Both the position numbers and the translations under genes were made by a program. Below the pieces are notes generated by a model. That model had not been told where the DNA came from. It saw nothing but the letters and a program-made list of their open reading frames with translations, and searched no databases. From NCBI RefSeq assembly GCF_026230175.1, contig NZ_CP104208.1:620001-684000 (forward strand): 64,000 nt of DNA, in the 5' to 3' direction. The first letter of the stretch is position 1. Each line of letters opens with the position of its first letter. The stretch comes from Desulfovibrio mangrovi. Its GTDB lineage: Bacteria; Desulfobacterota; Desulfovibrionia; Desulfovibrionales; Desulfovibrionaceae. This document shows positions 17,775-27,073 of the stretch, one piece after another.

Positions 17775-19727
17775 ATGGCAATGATTAGCATCCAAAACGC
17801 GAGTTTGACCTTGGGCGGCCCTCTGCTGCTTGATGACGTGACCCTGCAGATAGAGGAAGGGCAGCGCGTCTGTCTGCTCGGACGAAACGGCGCGGGCAAG
17901 TCTACCTTCTTGCGGGTAATGCATGGCGACGTTCCGCTGGACAAGGGCATTGTTGCCCGCCAGCAGGGGCTTCGCGTATCCATGCTGCCGCAGGATGTTC
18001 CTCAGGGCATCAGCGGACAGGTTTATGGGGTTATTGCCGAGGGGATGGGCGAGGCTGGCAAGGCTCTTGCCGAATATCATGCCGTGAGCGTTCTGCTGGA
18101 GGCGGGGGAGTCTTCACCGGAATTGTCGGCGCGATTGCAGAAAGCTCAGCAGGGCCTTGATATCGGCGACGGCTGGACTGCTCATCAGACCGTTCAGAGC
18201 GTCATCAATCACCTGAAGCTGGATGCCGAGGCAGAGTTTGCAAGCCTTTCCGGAGGGATGAAGCGTCGCGTGATGCTGGCCCGGGCCCTTGCCGCGGAAC
18301 CCGATGTGCTGCTCCTTGACGAGCCCACCAACCATCTGGATGTGGATTCCATAGACTGGCTTGAAGAGTTTCTGCTCCGGCGGGTGCGCACGCTGGTGCT
18401 CATCACCCATGACCGTATGTTTCTGCGCAAGGTGGCAAACCGGATTATCGAACTGGACCGGGGGCATCTTGCAGACTGGTCCTGCGATTATGATACGTTT
18501 CTGGAGCGTAAGGACGGGCAGTTGCACGCGGAACAGCAGGAATGGGCCCGTCTCGACCAGAAGCTTGCCGAAGAGGAAGTCTGGATACGCAAGGGGATCA
18601 AGGCGCGCCGCACCCGTAACATGGGGCGCGTACGGGATCTCTACGCCTTGCGTGAGGAGCGCGCCAAACGTCGCGAACGGCTCGGCACCGTATCCATGCA
18701 GGTGCAGGAGGCGGAGCGCTCCGGCCAGCTCGTGGTGGAAGCCCGGAATCTGACCTACACCTATCCGGATGCCGATAAGCCCGTCATCAGCGATGCTTCC
18801 CTTGTCATCAGCCGTGGTGACAAGGTCGGCCTGCTCGGGCCAAACGGTGTGGGCAAGACCACCATGCTCAAACTGCTGCTAGGTCGTTTGCAACCGCAGT
18901 CCGGTACGGTGCGTCATGGCACGAGGCTGGAGATTGCCTATTTTGACCAGCTTCGGGCTGAGCTGGATGACAGCAAGTCCGTTCGGGACAACGTTGCAAA
19001 CGGGAACGATACCGTGGAGATCAACGGAGCCAGAAAGCATGTCGTCGGCTATCTCAAGGAGTTCCTGTTTGATCCTCAGCGCATTCACATGCCTGTCAGC
19101 TGTCTTTCCGGCGGGGAGCGGAACCGTCTGCTGCTCGCCCGTCTCTTCACCAAGCCGTCCAACGTGCTTGTTTTCGACGAACCTACCAACGATCTGGATA
19201 TGGAGACGCTGGATCTGCTGGAGGAACTGATTGCAGGCTATTCCGGTACGGTGCTTGTGGTCAGCCATGACAGGGCGTTTCTTAATAATGTGGTGACCTC
19301 CACCCTTGCTTTTGAGGGCAACGGCCGTGTCTGCGAATATGTGGGCGGCTATGATGACTGGTTGCGCCAGCGTCCGGAACCTGTTGCGCAGGCGGTTCCC
19401 CGTGAATCTGCGAAAAAGGCTGCGTCCAAGAGTGCCGAGGAGGGGGGAGCAGGACGCCAGAAGAAGCTCTCCTTTAATGAGCAGCGCGAACTGAGCGCTC
19501 TTCGAGAGGAGCTGGAGGCGTTGCCGGCCCGGGTCGCGGCTTTGGAAGAAGAGCAGCATACGTTGGAGGCGGATATGGCAGATCCCGGTTTCTACACGCG
19601 CGATCCGCAGGGCTTTGCTGCGGCAACGGACCGTCTTCAGGAGCTGGAGATGGAGCAGCTTGATTTGCTCGAACGCTGGGAGGCAGCCGAGCAGCGTGTG
19701 GCAGAGCTTGAGCAATTCAGGGAGTAG
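17775..19727 (+). CDS. uup: ABC-F family ATPase (Uup-like)
   Basis: A 650 aa cytosolic protein with two ABC domains and no membrane segment. Walker A sites are GRNGAGKST (residues 36-44) and GPNGVGKTT (355-363). Signatures are LSGGMKRRVMLA and LSGGERNRLLLA, with Walker B LLLDEPTNHLD and LVFDEPTNDLD. The linker between domains is rich in Arg and Lys, as in ABC-F proteins. The C-terminal ~100 residues form a coiled coil as in Uup, which contacts DNA or the ribosome. ABC-F proteins act on the ribosome rather than in transport. AAGGA precedes the ATG; ATG at 17781 is an alternative. Confidence 0.88.
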   Translation: MAMISIQNASLTLGGPLLLDDVTLQIEEGQRVCLLGRNGAGKSTFLRVMHGDVPLDKGIVARQQGLRVSMLPQDVPQGISGQVYGVIAEGMGEAGKALAEYHAVSVLLEAGESSPELSARLQKAQQGLDIGDGWTAHQTVQSVINHLKLDAEAEFASLSGGMKRRVMLARALAAEPDVLLLDEPTNHLDVDSIDWLEEFLLRRVRTLVLITHDRMFLRKVANRIIELDRGHLADWSCDYDTFLERKDGQLHAEQQEWARLDQKLAEEEVWIRKGIKARRTRNMGRVRDLYALREERAKRRERLGTVSMQVQEAERSGQLVVEARNLTYTYPDADKPVISDASLVISRGDKVGLLGPNGVGKTTMLKLLLGRLQPQSGTVRHGTRLEIAYFDQLRAELDDSKSVRDNVANGNDTVEINGARKHVVGYLKEFLFDPQRIHMPVSCLSGGERNRLLLARLFTKPSNVLVFDEPTNDLDMETLDLLEELIAGYSGTVLVVSHDRAFLNNVVTSTLAFEGNGRVCEYVGGYDDWLRQRPEPVAQAVPRESAKKAASKSAEEGGAGRQKKLSFNEQRELSALREELEALPARVAALEEEQHTLEADMADPGFYTRDPQGFAAATDRLQELEMEQLDLLERWEAAEQRVAELEQFRE

Positions 19728-19814
19728 CGGGGCTTAGACTGGTTATTGTTGTAATATAGATGTTTCTGTAATTGTCGTACCATCTCATGAACCCTTTTAT
19801 ATAAGGAGTATGGT

Positions 19815-20594
19815 ATGTGGCACGACAAGAATGGAAATCCTATCCTTACGAATGGTTATCAGTCTGGCCTTTCTTTGGGCTCTTCGTTTGCAGTCCCTTC
19901 GGCAGCGGAAGAGCGGTATGTTGCCAAGTTCAGGAACCTTCAGTTCGAAAGGGAATCCCTGCACAACAACCTCTGCTTCGTTCCCATCAGTCTTGGGCAG
20001 GATTACCACGAGGGCAACAAGCTCGACTCAATTATGCGGCTTGTGGAAAAGACCTTCCGCGAGTGCGTCATCATCGTTTCGGATATGCTGCACAGGCATA
20101 CGTTGCGTATTGCCGATCCGGAACTTTCTGTGGAGCGGGCCTTCGTCAAGTCCGTCAATGTGGGCAAGCGGTGGGTTGAGGAAAATGCCGGAGCGTGGGC
20201 CGGCCTTTCCATTCCCTATCGCCTTGTCTATTGGAGCGACCTGCTCGGCATGGAAGCCTATCCGGACCACCGGAAGCAGCTTGATGCCTTTTGTGGGCGT
20301 GACAGTGCGGCAAGCAACCTCGTGGATACCATGGTGAGTCACTTTGTTGACTCCGCCTGCCGGGAAGAAACGCCTGAAGAGGAGCGCGCACGGGTTGCGG
20401 TATTGAGCAGGGAATACCTGCTTGAAGAACATGCCATCCAGTTGCGAATGCTTCCTGAGATGTTCCCTGATCATCATTTCATCTATCCGCACACCAATCG
20501 GCTTGATCCTCTCATGGATTTCTATGAGCGGATGACAGGCAATGTCTGCCGGTGGCTTCGCGTGCGTATTAGCAGAAAGGGGAAGAGCGTATAG
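19815..20594 (+). CDS. tRNA-dependent cyclodipeptide synthase homologue (XYP type)
   Basis: A 259 aa protein. The stretch CFVPISLGQDYHEGN (residues 54-68) matches the AlbC region that carries the nucleophilic serine, placing it at Ser59 (AlbC Ser37). REYLLEE (199-205) supplies Tyr201 and Glu205, the equivalents of AlbC Tyr178 and Glu182 with identical spacing. FIYPH (222-226) supplies Tyr224-Pro225, the Tyr202 position followed by Pro, which defines the XYP subfamily. This family joins two aminoacyl-tRNA-bound amino acids into a diketopiperazine. No oxidase, P450 or methyltransferase tailoring gene lies beside it. TAAGGAG sits 6 bases before the ATG. The amino acid substrates cannot be predicted. 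Confidence 0.75.
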   Translation: MWHDKNGNPILTNGYQSGLSLGSSFAVPSAAEERYVAKFRNLQFERESLHNNLCFVPISLGQDYHEGNKLDSIMRLVEKTFRECVIIVSDMLHRHTLRIADPELSVERAFVKSVNVGKRWVEENAGAWAGLSIPYRLVYWSDLLGMEAYPDHRKQLDAFCGRDSAASNLVDTMVSHFVDSACREETPEEERARVAVLSREYLLEEHAIQLRMLPEMFPDHHFIYPHTNRLDPLMDFYERMTGNVCRWLRVRISRKGKSV

Positions 20595-20644
20595 CGGGAG
20601 AGATGTGGCTTTTTTTTGACTCGGACCTGACAATCTAACTGATT

Positions 20645-20702
20645 GCCCATCTTTCATGAAGTGTTGTACGTTGTAACATCTGAATGAAAGGTGGGCTTTT
20701 TT
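20645..20702 (+). terminator. Terminator hairpin that contains the next gene's Shine-Dalgarno
   Basis: GCCCATCTTTCAT (20645-20657) pairs with ATGAAAGGTGGGC (20684-20696) over 13 bp with one G-U pair. The loop holds a further GTGTT/AACAT stem. Six T follow, and the ATG of the binding-protein gene starts at the next base. The ribosome binding site AAGGTGGG lies in the right arm. It therefore looks like the end of the cyclodipeptide synthase transcript and also like a block on expression of the next gene. Confidence 0.75.
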
Positions 20703-21443
20703 ATGCGAAGACTGCTTCTGCTGTTGGCATTGGTGGTATTCTTCCCCGGGGGGGGATCTGCTGCCGGCATTGATAAGGTGATAGTCGTGGGACCTTCGTG
20801 GGACCGTTTCACCAATATGGACGGAACAGGGCTGTATCATGAGATATTGAACGAGGTGTTTGCCCTGCACGGCATAACTGTCGTTCGCGAATATGTACCT
20901 TCCGAGCGGGCCTACGATCTTGTCAGAGCTGGCAGGGCAGACATGATGACCTGTCATGACGTGGCGAAAGCCCCCTTGCAACTGGCAAAATATCCTATGT
21001 TTGCCGGGCCTTACCATGTATTTTACAATAAGGAACGCGTTGGGGAGTGGAAAGGGGAGGAAAGCCTTCGTGACAAGGTCGTAGCCTGGCGAATCGGCTA
21101 TTACACGGTAAAGAATTTTCCTGTTCCCATACAGCCAAAGGAAGTGAAGACGGGGACTTCTGCCCTCGGCATGGTGCTTCTCGGCAGAGCAGATTTTTAT
21201 GTGGATGATCTGTCTTTTATAGATACGTCCATTAAGGAAAACAAACTTCCGTTCGATAGGGCAGACTATGATGTCCGCATGGCCGGATACCGCACCTACC
21301 ATCCGGTGTTGTTGGAGTCTGAGCGGGGAGAGCGGATCAAGACATTGTATGATCAGGGCATGGAGCAGCTCATCCATAACGGAAAGCTGCGTGAGATCTT
21401 TGCCAAGTGGGGGTTTGAGTACCCGCCTTATACCATTGAGTAG
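20703..21443 (+). CDS. Orphan periplasmic amino-acid-type substrate-binding protein 1
   Basis: A 246 aa protein with a signal peptide (residues 1-20, ending near SAAG). The rest fits the SBP_bac_3 family (type II periplasmic binding fold). The start at 20703 is set by the signal peptide; a GTG at 20691 would add residues before it. No permease or ATPase gene is nearby, so it may serve sensing rather than transport. It is a tandem paralogue of the next gene: both have GPSW, the FTN-DGTGLYHEILN block, ALGMV and LGRADFY-DDL-FI. Its start codon abuts a terminator hairpin. Confidence 0.82.
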   Translation: MRRLLLLLALVVFFPGGGSAAGIDKVIVVGPSWDRFTNMDGTGLYHEILNEVFALHGITVVREYVPSERAYDLVRAGRADMMTCHDVAKAPLQLAKYPMFAGPYHVFYNKERVGEWKGEESLRDKVVAWRIGYYTVKNFPVPIQPKEVKTGTSALGMVLLGRADFYVDDLSFIDTSIKENKLPFDRADYDVRMAGYRTYHPVLLESERGERIKTLYDQGMEQLIHNGKLREIFAKWGFEYPPYTIE

Positions 21444-21564
21444 GGCTTGGGGTGTGGACCCAGGGGCTTTAATCGCTTGGTGATAGGGTGCGACTGTGTT
21501 TGATCATGCCGTGGTGGTTGCTTGGCAGAAATGATTATATGGATTTATTGCCTCCGGGGGATTC

Positions 21565-22308
21565 ATGAAGCGGTACGTGCTTTCTTTACTTCTTGTCCTG
21601 CTTGTTTCTTCGTGGGGACATGCTGCCGACTTGGGTGAAATAGTTGTTGTAGGTCCTTCATGGAACAAATTCACCAATCATGACGGCACGGGTCTGTATC
21701 ATGAGATCCTCAACAAGATTTTTACGGAGCAGGGGGTGCCTGTCCGCCGCATTTATGTCTCTTCTCAGCGGGGAAACGACCTTGTTGCCGCCGGCAAAGC
21801 GGATATGATGACGTGCAGGGACCGCGCCCCTTCTCCATTGTTTCTGGCTCGCTATGCCATGTATGAAGGTGAGTTTCATTGCTTCTTCAATCTCAAACGG
21901 CAGGGCGTCTGGCAGGGGCCGGAGAGCATGGCAGGCAAGTCTGTTGTCTTCCGGCTCGGTTACTATGCCCCGAAGAATTTTCCTGAAGGTACAATCCTCA
22001 AGGAAGTAAAAACGGCAGATGCCGCTCTGGGCATGGTTGTTCTGGGGCGGGCAGACTTCTACATTGACGATCTGAATTTTATCAATGAGTCCGTCAAAGC
22101 GAGTACTGTTCCGTTCAGCAAGGACGATTACGATATTCAGGTGGCCGGGAGACGTCAGTATTTTCCAGTTCTTAGAGACTCGCTTCGCGGCAGACAGATA
22201 GAAGAGATGTATGCAAAGGGAATTGAGAGGCTTCATGCTTCCGGAGAGTTACAATCGATTTTTGAAAAGTGGGGATTCCCCTATCCTCACTACGAGTTTT
22301 CTGAATAG
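21565..22308 (+). CDS. Orphan periplasmic amino-acid-type substrate-binding protein 2
   Basis: A 247 aa protein with a signal peptide (MKRYVLSLLLVLLVSSWGHA) and an SBP_bac_3 fold. It is the tandem paralogue of the preceding gene, with roughly half the residues shared and the same block order. Ligand-contact regions differ in places (for example MTCHDVAKAP against MTCRDRAPSP), so specificity may have diverged. It ends 14 bases before the hybrid sensor kinase, and no transporter subunits are present. This suggests that it delivers a ligand signal to the kinase. GGGGGA lies just upstream of the ATG. Confidence 0.83.
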   Translation: MKRYVLSLLLVLLVSSWGHAADLGEIVVVGPSWNKFTNHDGTGLYHEILNKIFTEQGVPVRRIYVSSQRGNDLVAAGKADMMTCRDRAPSPLFLARYAMYEGEFHCFFNLKRQGVWQGPESMAGKSVVFRLGYYAPKNFPEGTILKEVKTADAALGMVVLGRADFYIDDLNFINESVKASTVPFSKDDYDIQVAGRRQYFPVLRDSLRGRQIEEMYAKGIERLHASGELQSIFEKWGFPYPHYEFSE

Positions 22309-22322
22309 TTCCGGAGCGCTGC

Positions 22323-24797
22323 ATGGCCGAAGCTAAACGCAGTCCTTTTTTCGTACCTATCAAGAACTCGGTGGCAACCTTGCTGTTACGCAAGGTGTTT
22401 TTGCTGTACGTGCTGGTCACGTGCCTGCTTACGGCAGGGCAACTGATCAATGAATACATCTCCACCCATGACAAAGTGACCCGGTCGATTGCCTCTCTGG
22501 AAACTGTTGTTTCCGAGGGGTTGGCTGCGGCCATTTATAATGTGGATGACTTGCAGATCCGTACCATCGTGAACGGCATGCTTGAGACGCCGGAACTGGT
22601 GGGAGTGCGCGTTGAAACGGAGTTTCAGGGGGCATTTGAAGCCAATTCGCTTGAGAGGCCCCTGCCGTTTGCCGCTCCTGCATTCGGCGAGAATGGCATG
22701 TTGCTTAATGTCGAAGGAACAGGAGAACGGGACAGCCTTTTCTGGAACACCTTCCCGATCATGTACATGGAATCGGGCGGGCAGCCCTATGTAATTGGGG
22801 CGTTAACGCTGTTTTCCAGTGAGAATATTGTTCTCAGCGAAGTGTGGGAAGATCTCATCATCATTCTCGTCAATGCCCTTATCAAGGCTGTTGCCTTGTG
22901 GGTTATCTTCCTCTGGTTTGCCCGCAAGATACTTTCCCGTCCGCTCGAAAAATTGACCAGCGCCACAGCCATGGTCAGCATGGATAATCTTGAGAGTATT
23001 CAGGTTGCCATGGAGTCGGATAGCCGCAACGAACTGACGGTTCTTGCGGAAGCCTTCAATGCGATGCTGGCCAATCTGCTCGTCATGCGTAAGGAGTCGG
23101 AGCGGCTTGCCGTAAGCTTGCAGGATGCCAGCCGCCAGATTGAGGAGTACAGCTGGTCGCTTGAAGACAAGGTTGAAGAACGGACCCGTCAATTGGATGA
23201 GAAGAATGCCGAGCTGCAGGTTGCCATCGACAAATTGCAGAAGGCCAAGGAGCAGGCGGAGTCCGCCACGCGTTCCAAAAGCCAGTTCCTCGCCACTATG
23301 AGCCACGAAATCCGCACCCCCATGAATGTCATTCTCGGAATGGCGGAGGTGTTGACCGAGGCAGAGCTTTCAAGAGAGCAACAGGAAAATGTGAAGGTGC
23401 TGCGCCAGGCTGGTGAGGGACTTATGGAACTCATCAACGACATTCTGGATCTCTCCAAGGTCGAGTCCGGCCAGTTCATGCTGGAGCATATTGAATTCGA
23501 TCTGCAGAAGGTGGTGGACAAGACGCTCAGATCTCTGGCTGTGCGGGCGCATGAGAAAGGACTGGAAATTGGATGGCGTCTGGCTCCACACGTGCCGCAT
23601 CGGTTGAAGGGAGATCCCACGAGGCTGCGTCAGGTTCTGATCAATCTGATCGGCAACGCGGTCAAATTCACAGAGCGGGGCGAGGTCATTCTTGAGGTGA
23701 ATGCCAATCCGGACAGTATGGATCCGGGCAACCTTCTTTTCACGGTCCGGGACTCGGGGATTGGTGTGCCTCCTTCCCTGCATGGCAGAATATTCGAGAC
23801 CTTTTCGCAGGCTGATTCCTCGACGACGCGAAAGTTCGGTGGAACCGGACTTGGTCTGGCTATCTGCCGCCATCTTGTCAGTCTTATGGGCGGGCATATC
23901 GGGGTGGAAAGCGATGGGTTTTCCGGCTCCATTTTTTCTTTCACGGCCAACTTTGAAGTCTGCAGCAGGCAGCTTGCAAAGACCAAAGGGGCGAAGACCG
24001 TGGCCGGCAAACGTGTGCTTGTGGTAGAGCCCCACGTCTTTACCCGCAGCTTGCTGCATGAATATCTGGAAGATTTTGGTGCAGCCGTGGAAGTGCTGGG
24101 CAGTCTGGAGGGGGCGGCCGTATGCATTCGGGAACTTGCGGCACAAGGGCGCCCCGTCGAACTGGTTGTGACGGTTCTGCCAAATGAACGGGCAGAGGTG
24201 GGAGGGCAGAGCGTCGCTTCGTATCTGGGAGCACTGGTGGATGAAGGCGTACGGCGATCCGTGTTGCTTTGTACGCTTGGATGCGGGGTCGGAGCAGTTC
24301 CTGGCGGGCTTTACTATACTTCTTTGGTAAAGCCGATTGCTCCGCATTCGCTTGCCGAGGCGCTGGATGAGGTGCTGGCTTCAAAAGCGGAACCGGAAGA
24401 GCCTGCTTCGCATGCAATGGGGGATGGCCGCGCTCTGCGCATTCTGCTCGTGGACGATTCTCCCAATAACCGCATGGTGGTGGAACTGTTCCTGCGCCGA
24501 ACTCCTCACGAGCTTGTCATGGCGGAGAATGGTCAGGATGGGGTGGACCGCTTTGCGAATGAATTCTTTGACGTGGTGCTCATGGATATTGAAATGCCGG
24601 TCATGGATGGTCTGACAGCAACATCACGTATCCGTGAATTGGAGCGGCAACGGGGAGGGGGGCAGGTGCCCGTCATCGCGCTTACTGCCCATGCCCTTGA
24701 GGAAGAGAAGAAAAGGGCTTTTGATGCCGGCTGTACCGGATTCTTGACCAAGCCAGTGCATAAGAATGTTTTGCTTACAGAATTGTCGCAGCTGTAA
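22323..24797 (+). CDS. Hybrid sensor histidine kinase with two receiver domains, the first degenerate
   Basis: An 824 aa protein. Transmembrane helices lie near residues 20-42 and 180-200, flanking a periplasmic sensor of about 135 residues. A HAMP domain (about 200-255) and coiled coil follow. The HisKA box is SQFLATMSHEIRTPMN with His328. The ATPase domain has N-box LINLIGNAVKFTE, then DSGIGVP and GGTGLGLAIC. A receiver-like domain (RVLVVEPHVFTRS, about 562-680) lacks the acidic pair and phospho-acceptor. A second receiver is complete (ILLVDDSPNN, phospho-acceptor Asp755, later Thr and Lys). No DNA-binding output is fused. It follows the binding-protein gene within 14 bases. Confidence 0.9.
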   Translation: MAEAKRSPFFVPIKNSVATLLLRKVFLLYVLVTCLLTAGQLINEYISTHDKVTRSIASLETVVSEGLAAAIYNVDDLQIRTIVNGMLETPELVGVRVETEFQGAFEANSLERPLPFAAPAFGENGMLLNVEGTGERDSLFWNTFPIMYMESGGQPYVIGALTLFSSENIVLSEVWEDLIIILVNALIKAVALWVIFLWFARKILSRPLEKLTSATAMVSMDNLESIQVAMESDSRNELTVLAEAFNAMLANLLVMRKESERLAVSLQDASRQIEEYSWSLEDKVEERTRQLDEKNAELQVAIDKLQKAKEQAESATRSKSQFLATMSHEIRTPMNVILGMAEVLTEAELSREQQENVKVLRQAGEGLMELINDILDLSKVESGQFMLEHIEFDLQKVVDKTLRSLAVRAHEKGLEIGWRLAPHVPHRLKGDPTRLRQVLINLIGNAVKFTERGEVILEVNANPDSMDPGNLLFTVRDSGIGVPPSLHGRIFETFSQADSSTTRKFGGTGLGLAICRHLVSLMGGHIGVESDGFSGSIFSFTANFEVCSRQLAKTKGAKTVAGKRVLVVEPHVFTRSLLHEYLEDFGAAVEVLGSLEGAAVCIRELAAQGRPVELVVTVLPNERAEVGGQSVASYLGALVDEGVRRSVLLCTLGCGVGAVPGGLYYTSLVKPIAPHSLAEALDEVLASKAEPEEPASHAMGDGRALRILLVDDSPNNRMVVELFLRRTPHELVMAENGQDGVDRFANEFFDVVLMDIEMPVMDGLTATSRIRELERQRGGGQVPVIALTAHALEEEKKRAFDAGCTGFLTKPVHKNVLLTELSQL

Positions 24798-25007
24798 CGG
24801 TTTGATATTTTTATTTTTTACAAAAAAAATGAAAAAAAATGCACTTGCCCCCTTTTCAAGGCGGAAAAGTGATTTATTATCCCGTCAGCGTTCGGGAAGC
24901 TTATTCCCGACGTTGATTTCTCCCGCTTTTTCAGCGGGTATTTTATGTACATAACTTGCGGTGCCCGTTCCGCTGTATGCGGAACCTGCCTTTGAAAAGA
25001 CCATGTG

Positions 25008-25036
25008 TTGCAAGCGGGGGCAGGAAGGGGTATATA
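25008..25036 (+). promoter_or_regulatory. Promoter of groESL
   Basis: -35 TTGCAA (25008-25013), 17-base spacer, -10 TATATA (25031-25036). Transcription should begin near 25043, just before the CIRCE element, so HrcA bound there would block it. Confidence 0.7.
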
Positions 25037-25047
25037 TCCGCGCGGTA

Positions 25048-25074
25048 TTGGCACTCGACTCGTTTGAGTGCTAA
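25048..25074 (+). promoter_or_regulatory. CIRCE operator (HrcA binding site)
   Basis: TTGGCACTC, nine bases, GAGTGCTAA. The consensus is TTAGCACTC-N9-GAGTGCTAA, so only one base differs. It is the binding site of the heat-shock repressor HrcA. No hrcA gene lies in the window. Confidence 0.93.
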
Positions 25075-25114
25075 CAGAAAAGTCGAATATGAAAAAATGT
25101 TGGAGGGTTATAGT

Positions 25115-25399
25115 ATGAATCTGAAGCCTTTGAGCGATCGCGTTCTGGTTAAGCGTCTTGAAGCCGAAGAAAAGACCGCCGGTGGTCTTTACATTCCTGA
25201 TACCGCCAAGGAAAAGCCCTCTCGTGGCGAAGTCGTTGCGGTAGGCCCCGGTAAGGTTGAAAACGGCAACACCATTGCCATGACCGTTGCTGTCGGCAAT
25301 GTTGTTCTCTTCAACAAGTACGCTGGTACCGAGATCAAGATCGACGGTAACGACTTCCTCGTAATGCGCGAAGACGACATTCTCGCCATCATCGCCTAA
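25115..25399 (+). CDS. groES: Co-chaperonin GroES
   Basis: A 94 aa protein beginning [19 protein letters not shown], the standard GroES N terminus. GGAGGG lies 7 bases before the ATG at 25115. The mobile loop region ([16 protein letters not shown]) and the end DDILAIIA are typical. It caps GroEL during protein folding in the cytosol. It is the first gene of the CIRCE-controlled operon, 39 bases before groEL. Confidence 0.97.

Positions 25400-27073
<1,674 letters not shown>

Follow-up and report, generated by a model that had tools for sequence, protein, structure and literature searches.

A divergent XYP-type cyclodipeptide synthase homologue beside binding-protein and hybrid-kinase genes in the sulfate reducer Desulfovibrio mangrovi

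Results

Gene content of the uup-groES interval

We analysed a 64,000-nucleotide window of the Desulfovibrio mangrovi genome (contig NZ_CP104208.1, positions 620,001 to 684,000; positions below count from the first letter of this window), in which a predicted XYP-type cyclodipeptide synthase (CDPS) gene lies at 19815–20594 on the forward strand, starting with ATG, encoding 259 residues and preceded by an AAGGAG sequence at 19803–19808. Upstream is a Uup-like ABC-F ATPase gene (17775–19727); downstream follow an RNA hairpin (20645–20696), the genes of two SBP_bac_3-like binding proteins, SBP1 (20703–21443) and its tandem paralogue SBP2 (21565–22308; 53% identical to SBP1), a hybrid histidine kinase gene (22323–24797) and groES-groEL (25112–27073), all on the forward strand. 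The uup gene and groES-groEL are constant neighbours that we treat as flanks outside the unit. An antisense ORF (20028–21377, minus strand), longer than the CDPS ORF, overlaps it, and this analysis found no support for it as a gene. The genome carries dsrA, at 644 bits against a cut-off of 393, in agreement with the initial description of the organism as a sulfate reducer.

The ORF listed for SBP1 begins at GTG 20691, and ATG 20703 is the more likely start. Both binding proteins match the SBP_bac_3 profile below its cut-off and have N-termini that look signal-peptide-like by eye; a predicted model of SBP1 resembles amino-acid-binding proteins, with just one of five models good (pLDDT 82 versus 51–67). 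The kinase comprises an N-terminal sensor region with a weak CHASE5-like match only, followed by HAMP, HisKA, HATPase_c and receiver domains. Its core resembles models of TorS, BarA and LuxQ, all 25 listed scores falling below cut-off and these matches leaving the sensor region uncovered. A hybrid kinase and a periplasmic binding protein are thus encoded side by side here, with export judged by eye, as in LuxPQ- and TorTS-type systems, which pair a periplasmic binding protein with a hybrid kinase; the window locus differs from these in its sensor region and in having binding proteins of the SBP_bac_3 kind. We recognised no permease gene between uup and groES, and no tailoring enzyme among 14 neighbours scanned (uup, SBP1, SBP2, the kinase and ten more, four of these ten being without a Pfam match), which agrees with the initial annotation on the latter point. 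That annotation contained neither the adjoining two-SBP/hybrid-kinase operon nor the conserved hairpin, nor the occurrence of the SBP-kinase module without a CDPS that is described below.

The encoded protein is a divergent member of the CDPS family

The two available family profiles both match the protein with significant E-values and with scores under their curated cut-offs: PF16715 (Pfam CDPS) covers residues 55–203 at E = 3.2e-5 (24.2 bits versus 27) and TIGR04539 (NCBIfam) covers residues 53–209 at E = 1e-9 (38.3 bits versus 45). A curated cut-off is a threshold for naming and no property of an enzyme, and membership of the family is carried here by tests of structure, fold and residues. 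A phmmer search of sequences with solved structures places the Fluoribacter dumoffii CDPS (5ocd) first, over residues 37–225 at E = 2e-19, followed by 9i5m (1e-10), 5mlq (1.1e-10) and 5mlp (5e-8), among which are Nocardia (1e-10) and Rickettsiella (5e-8) enzymes; a profile built from the CDPSs of four species lifts the 5ocd match to E = 1.6e-26. An AlphaFold2 model computed from a four-sequence alignment has a pLDDT of 82.3 and a pTM of 0.78, with residues 2–9 and 11–31 below 50. Searched with Foldseek, this model again finds 5ocd best (E = 1.6e-16, TMq 0.75), then the Rickettsiella, Nocardia and other CDPSs including AlbC (9.6e-7), and then tyrosyl-tRNA synthetases (about 3e-4), so that the predicted fold is Rossmann-like and of the class Ic aminoacyl-tRNA synthetase kind. 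Among the 50 Foldseek matches listed, no structurally solved CDPS exceeds 24% identity to the window protein. Neither outcome that the initial annotation named as refuting, a lack of significant profile matches or a predicted fold of another kind, was observed, with the profile matches significant by E-value and below the curated cut-offs. Taken together, the protein is almost certainly a CDPS homologue, as initially proposed, and a distant branch of an established family.

The catalytic residues lie where the initial annotation had placed them. Ser59, Tyr201, Glu205 and Tyr224 are separated by 142, 4 and 19 positions, nearly the spacing of Ser37, Tyr178, Glu182 and Tyr202 in AlbC, for which Snou-CDPS (AlbC) numbering in PMC7566563 and PMC13062777 gives 141, 4 and 20. 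The Fluoribacter enzyme and other XYP enzymes are nearer relatives of the window protein than AlbC is. Ser59, Gln62, Tyr201, Glu205, Tyr224 and Pro225 are invariant in all four orthologues, and all of them except Gln62 remain fixed, among nine columns in total, when three distant enzymes, one from Endohaliclona and two from the same order, are added to give an alignment of seven CDPSs.

Assignment to the XYP type is likewise upheld by sequence, fold and catalytic residues. The subfamily is defined, in PMC13062777, by position X40 (any residue, Asn in NYH enzymes) and by P203 after Y202, to which Gln62 and Pro225 correspond. XYP enzymes are also described, in PMC7566563, as having basic beta2 (K-phi-X-F) and beta7 (L-R/K-F-K-K) strands; the C-terminal strand of the window lineage is basic, reading RWLR[VI]RISR in all four species (beta7 L248-R249-V250-R251), and the beta2 motif is only approximate on a by-eye reading, with F39 fitting, Val36 at the Lys position and K38 and R40 nearby. 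With the Fluoribacter CDPS, its nearest solved XYP relative, the window protein has in common the fold, the catalytic Ser/Tyr/Glu/Tyr set, the Tyr-Pro pair and the basic C-terminal strand. It differs from that enzyme in sequence (22–24% identity in the structural alignment) and in a C-terminal motif of its own, HHF(V/I)YPHTxRLDPLM, kept in all four species.

For substrate pocket 1 (P1), positions given in PMC5816076 translate, counting from Ser59, Glu205 and Tyr224, into F55, P57, I208, Q209 and F222, with W140 plausible for position 119. Among XYP-like rows of Table 2 of that paper, the one that looks nearest is a Tyr/Tyr row, FPLCWISE, whose assignment to an enzyme is our own, and which points, weakly, to an aromatic residue in pocket 1.

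Codon comparisons indicate that the gene is under purifying selection. The closest pair of carriers has dN 0.20 and dS 1.33, and the other pairs have dN 0.32–0.36 and dS 1.9–3.0, with dS near saturation.

CDPS genes in the order and beyond

Within the genus the CDPS is found in four of ten genomes, the window genome included, and in all four the order is uup-CDPS-SBP1-SBP2-hybrid histidine kinase-groES-groEL, kept while the proteins diverged to 58–77% identity. In the six non-carriers groES-groEL follows uup at a distance of about 0.5–0.7 kb. SBP1-like genes (E ≤ 1e-10) occur in the same four genomes, two in each, so that each genome of the genus has either the full set of CDPS, SBPs and kinase at the uup-groES locus or none of it.

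The four-species CDPS profile retrieves four of the 348 genomes of the order. PF16715 at E ≤ 0.01 retrieves nine of the 348, three of them over the cut-off, and none of 14 control genomes; three of the nine belong to the window lineage, the fourth carrier (G003) being missed by Pfam, and the others are three further CDPSs over the cut-off (G076, G281 and G225), a short CDPS-like ORF (G121) and two weak matches (G068 and G119). Among 395 genomes drawn from the phylum the same profile matches two, the window genome and G121. The G225 enzyme is of the NPYLGIS type (PF16715 30.6 bits; locus L028, 6786–8761, minus strand) and lies just downstream of a gene of the PAD_porph family (agmatine-deiminase-like). 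The G121 ORF (179 residues; TIGR04539 9.4e-9; locus L030, 4888–6488) matches the first half of the profile only, is directly followed by an integrase-core transposase-like gene and is possibly a CDPS broken by insertion. Searched against genome contigs, the window protein alone finds no match and the profile finds one, in a congeneric MAG; phage records and viral contigs gave no CDPS match.

Sulfate reducers with a CDPS were known before. PMC2922099 describes, in 2010, a CDPS with Mur ligase and SelA-like genes for Desulfovibrio (Pseudodesulfovibrio) aespoeensis, and G281 carries this same set of CDPS, Mur ligase and SelA (locus L027). The D. aespoeensis-type enzyme resembles the window CDPS in family, in order (Desulfovibrionales) and in its Tyr-Pro pair, whereas the window lineage differs from it in sequence (19% identity), in active-site loop (GISINN in G281) and in gene neighbours.

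A CDPS on a plasmid of Candidatus Endohaliclona renieramycinifaciens, a sponge symbiont of the Legionellales, is 29% identical to the window protein over residues 46–230 (MK748464; 26–29% overall range) and has the same catalytic residues and Tyr-Pro pair. It too is directly followed by a two-component system, but no SBP genes adjoin it, its kinase has PQ-loop and PAS domains, and its response regulator is separate. A plasmid search with four further CDPS queries returned the same four Endohaliclona records, or none for one query, and because these records are near-identical the case counts as a single lineage. The protein (QCC21406.1, renieramycin plasmid; locus L031, 7896–10956) is annotated as hypothetical.

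A conserved hairpin contains the likely SBP1 ribosome-binding site

Between the CDPS and SBP1 (20645–20696, + strand) lies a predicted RNA hairpin with a 13-bp stem and a loop of 24–27 bases, present in 4/4 CDPS-bearing species; the likely SBP1 ribosome-binding site lies in its 3′ arm, and its loop keeps TGnTGTAnGnT. Each of the four folds better than all 200 of its dinucleotide shuffles (z −3.9 to −5.8), and 51 of the 52 cells pair, a fraction that drops to 42–49% when the partner is slid by one to three columns. Compensatory changes are frequent: both sides change in 7 of the 13 pairs against 3.3 in shuffles (seven is reached by 1 of 500), and none of the 500 attains the observed covariation score; the number of further pair types, 10 versus 8.9, is not unusual (174 of 500). 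These statistics come from four related sequences, with the structure read off the same sequences. A covariance model scores 63–72 bits in the four carriers among the ten genomes, with 150 first-look candidates scored per genome; the next matches at that depth are these hairpins read on the reverse strand, at 24.4 bits or below, and one of 20.1 bits in G005.

We considered whether this element is a simple terminator or a known RNA. The T-run that follows it is uninterrupted (TTTTTT) in the window genome only, broken in G006 and lacking in G004 and G003, and we rejected the reading of the hairpin as a terminator alone; because only the window genome has the uninterrupted run, masking of the ribosome site is the feature that the four hairpins have in common, and the window hairpin may also terminate transcription. 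A terminator scan does not list the hairpin, the loop of which is longer than the scan allows. An Rfam search of 19500–25500 returned one sub-threshold match, elsewhere (24880–24948), and we set aside a known RNA family as well. Our preferred reading is that the hairpin probably insulates SBP1 from read-through, in that it would stop translation of SBP1 from CDPS transcripts that run on; a riboswitch or thermometer is possible. In G004 a separate terminator-like hairpin with a T-run lies between uup and the CDPS (locus L007, 9569–9779, minus strand), an arrangement that suggests a separate promoter for the CDPS in that genome.

SBP-kinase modules that lack a CDPS

Identity to the window uup is 77–100% in carriers versus 67–68% in non-carriers. 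By this measure the four carriers appear to form a single clade, and because uup identity separates the two groups, co-occurrence of CDPS, SBPs and kinase can be the outcome of a single gain or loss. Members of the SBP family at E ≤ 1e-20 occur in 51 of 345 genomes of the order, the four carriers included, with at most eight candidates scored per genome. Of 20 such SBP loci examined outside the carriers (19 genomes), five, from four genera, have the same kinase sensor region next to them, and none of the 20 stretches contains a CDPS (0/20). One of these loci, in another genus of the family (G118; locus L063, 3971–10846), has uup, then about 174 bases further on SBP, SBP and hybrid kinase.

Among 30 aligned SBPs, 8 from carriers and 22 from elsewhere, 13 positions (W37, T41, D44, G45, G47, Y49, R73, W120, D168, Y170, D172, D173 and R201) each carry one residue in at least 28 sequences. 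Since these 13 residues are kept with or without a CDPS, the alignment suggests a common ligand that is independent of the CDPS. Six positions (V33, R66, D76, A92, A198 and F242) are fixed in all eight carrier SBPs and are each found, by the rule of our script, in at most 8 of the 22 others; two of them, V33 and R66, also predominate where SBPs adjoin the kinase but no CDPS.

Discussion

The best overall explanation of the data, to which we assign a probability of roughly 0.83, is that the window gene encodes a working XYP-type CDPS that makes a cyclic dipeptide. The computed basis is homology, predicted fold, a catalytic set intact in four species and purifying selection; activity and each reaction step are drawn by analogy to characterised CDPSs. 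By that analogy, a first aminoacyl-tRNA would pass its aminoacyl group to Ser59, the aminoacyl group of a second would then be added to give a dipeptidyl-enzyme, with Tyr201 and Glu205 anchoring and catalysing, and the cyclic dipeptide would be released with the help of Tyr224. Homology is no guarantee of activity, since 10 of 42 CDPSs, XYP members included, were inactive in E. coli tests according to PMC5816076. The protein might instead be a CDPS-fold enzyme that uses aminoacyl-tRNA for another product, such as a linear dipeptide, or for aminoacyl transfer to another acceptor, and the identity of at most 24% to listed enzymes of known structure and the scores below both family cut-offs would be in keeping with this; however, the full catalytic set, the cyclising Tyr224 included, is invariant, and we give this alternative only a slim chance. 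We retain the reading that the CDPS is probably active and that, as initially proposed, the organism likely makes a diketopiperazine. With no modifying enzyme recognised in the vicinity, the product probably serves in unmodified form; that it acts as a signal, the other suggestion of the initial annotation, is speculation.

The relation of the CDPS to its neighbours is best weighed from two sides. The four genes could form one cell-cell signalling unit, in which the CDPS product, once outside the cell, would be captured in the periplasm by SBP1, SBP2 or both, and the hybrid kinase would respond to docking of the ligand-bound SBP, much as LuxP reports to LuxQ. Several observations are compatible with such a unit, among them the joint presence of CDPS, both SBPs and kinase in four genomes of the genus and their joint absence from the uup-groES interval of the other six, the signal-peptide-like SBPs in an interval with no recognised permease gene, the six SBP positions uniform in carriers and rarer elsewhere, and the unrelated Endohaliclona plasmid, on which a CDPS directly precedes a PQ-loop/PAS histidine kinase and a response regulator. 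Several points weigh against it: the carriers look like one clade, so that co-occurrence may be one event; the SBP loci of other genera have the kinase in 5 of 20 cases, one of them right after uup, and a CDPS in none; many SBP residues are the same whether or not a CDPS is present; and the plasmid case is one lineage with a kinase of another type. For the first two of these reasons we do not take co-occurrence to prove that the pair is dedicated. Synthase and receptor genes do co-occur in the genus, and the existence of the SBP-kinase module without a CDPS argues against dedicated CDPS-sensor pairing. We regard the signalling unit as unlikely on this comparative evidence, which does not favour signalling. 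Its fuller form appears a little more doubtful still, namely a self-contained cyclic-dipeptide signalling unit of CDPS, SBP1, SBP2 and kinase in which the ribosome-site-masking hairpin tunes receptor output, with the Endohaliclona plasmid as a second, independently assembled CDPS/two-component pair.

The other possibility, towards which we lean, is that the CDPS is a passenger, brought by chance to a place between uup and an SBP-kinase operon that was already there, its product acting elsewhere, for instance in competition, in metal or redox chemistry or through effects on neighbours. The G118 arrangement speaks for this, with uup followed by SBP-SBP-kinase and no CDPS in another genus; so does the hairpin at the CDPS/SBP1 junction, which masks the SBP1 ribosome-binding site as insulation would, and the T-run hairpin between uup and the CDPS in G004 points the same way. 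Against it stand the intact CDPS-SBP1-SBP2-kinase order despite divergence to 58–77% identity and the all-or-none presence of these genes at the locus in the genus. In our best overall explanation, the CDPS gene would have been either gained by the SBP-SBP-hybrid-kinase locus or lost from it elsewhere; a functional link between CDPS product and sensor is possible and is not our default.

Curated profiles used at their cut-offs miss this CDPS lineage, and its members are therefore likely annotated as hypothetical proteins. Literature searches covering titles and abstract openings returned, among the matches listed, no CDPS with a binding protein and a histidine kinase. The interest of the locus lies in its gene context rather than in the presence of a CDPS. 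Where no tailoring enzyme is recognised, the role of a CDPS is not obvious; in this free-living sulfate reducer the gene precedes those of binding proteins and a hybrid kinase, which makes product, receptor binding and kinase output testable at one locus.
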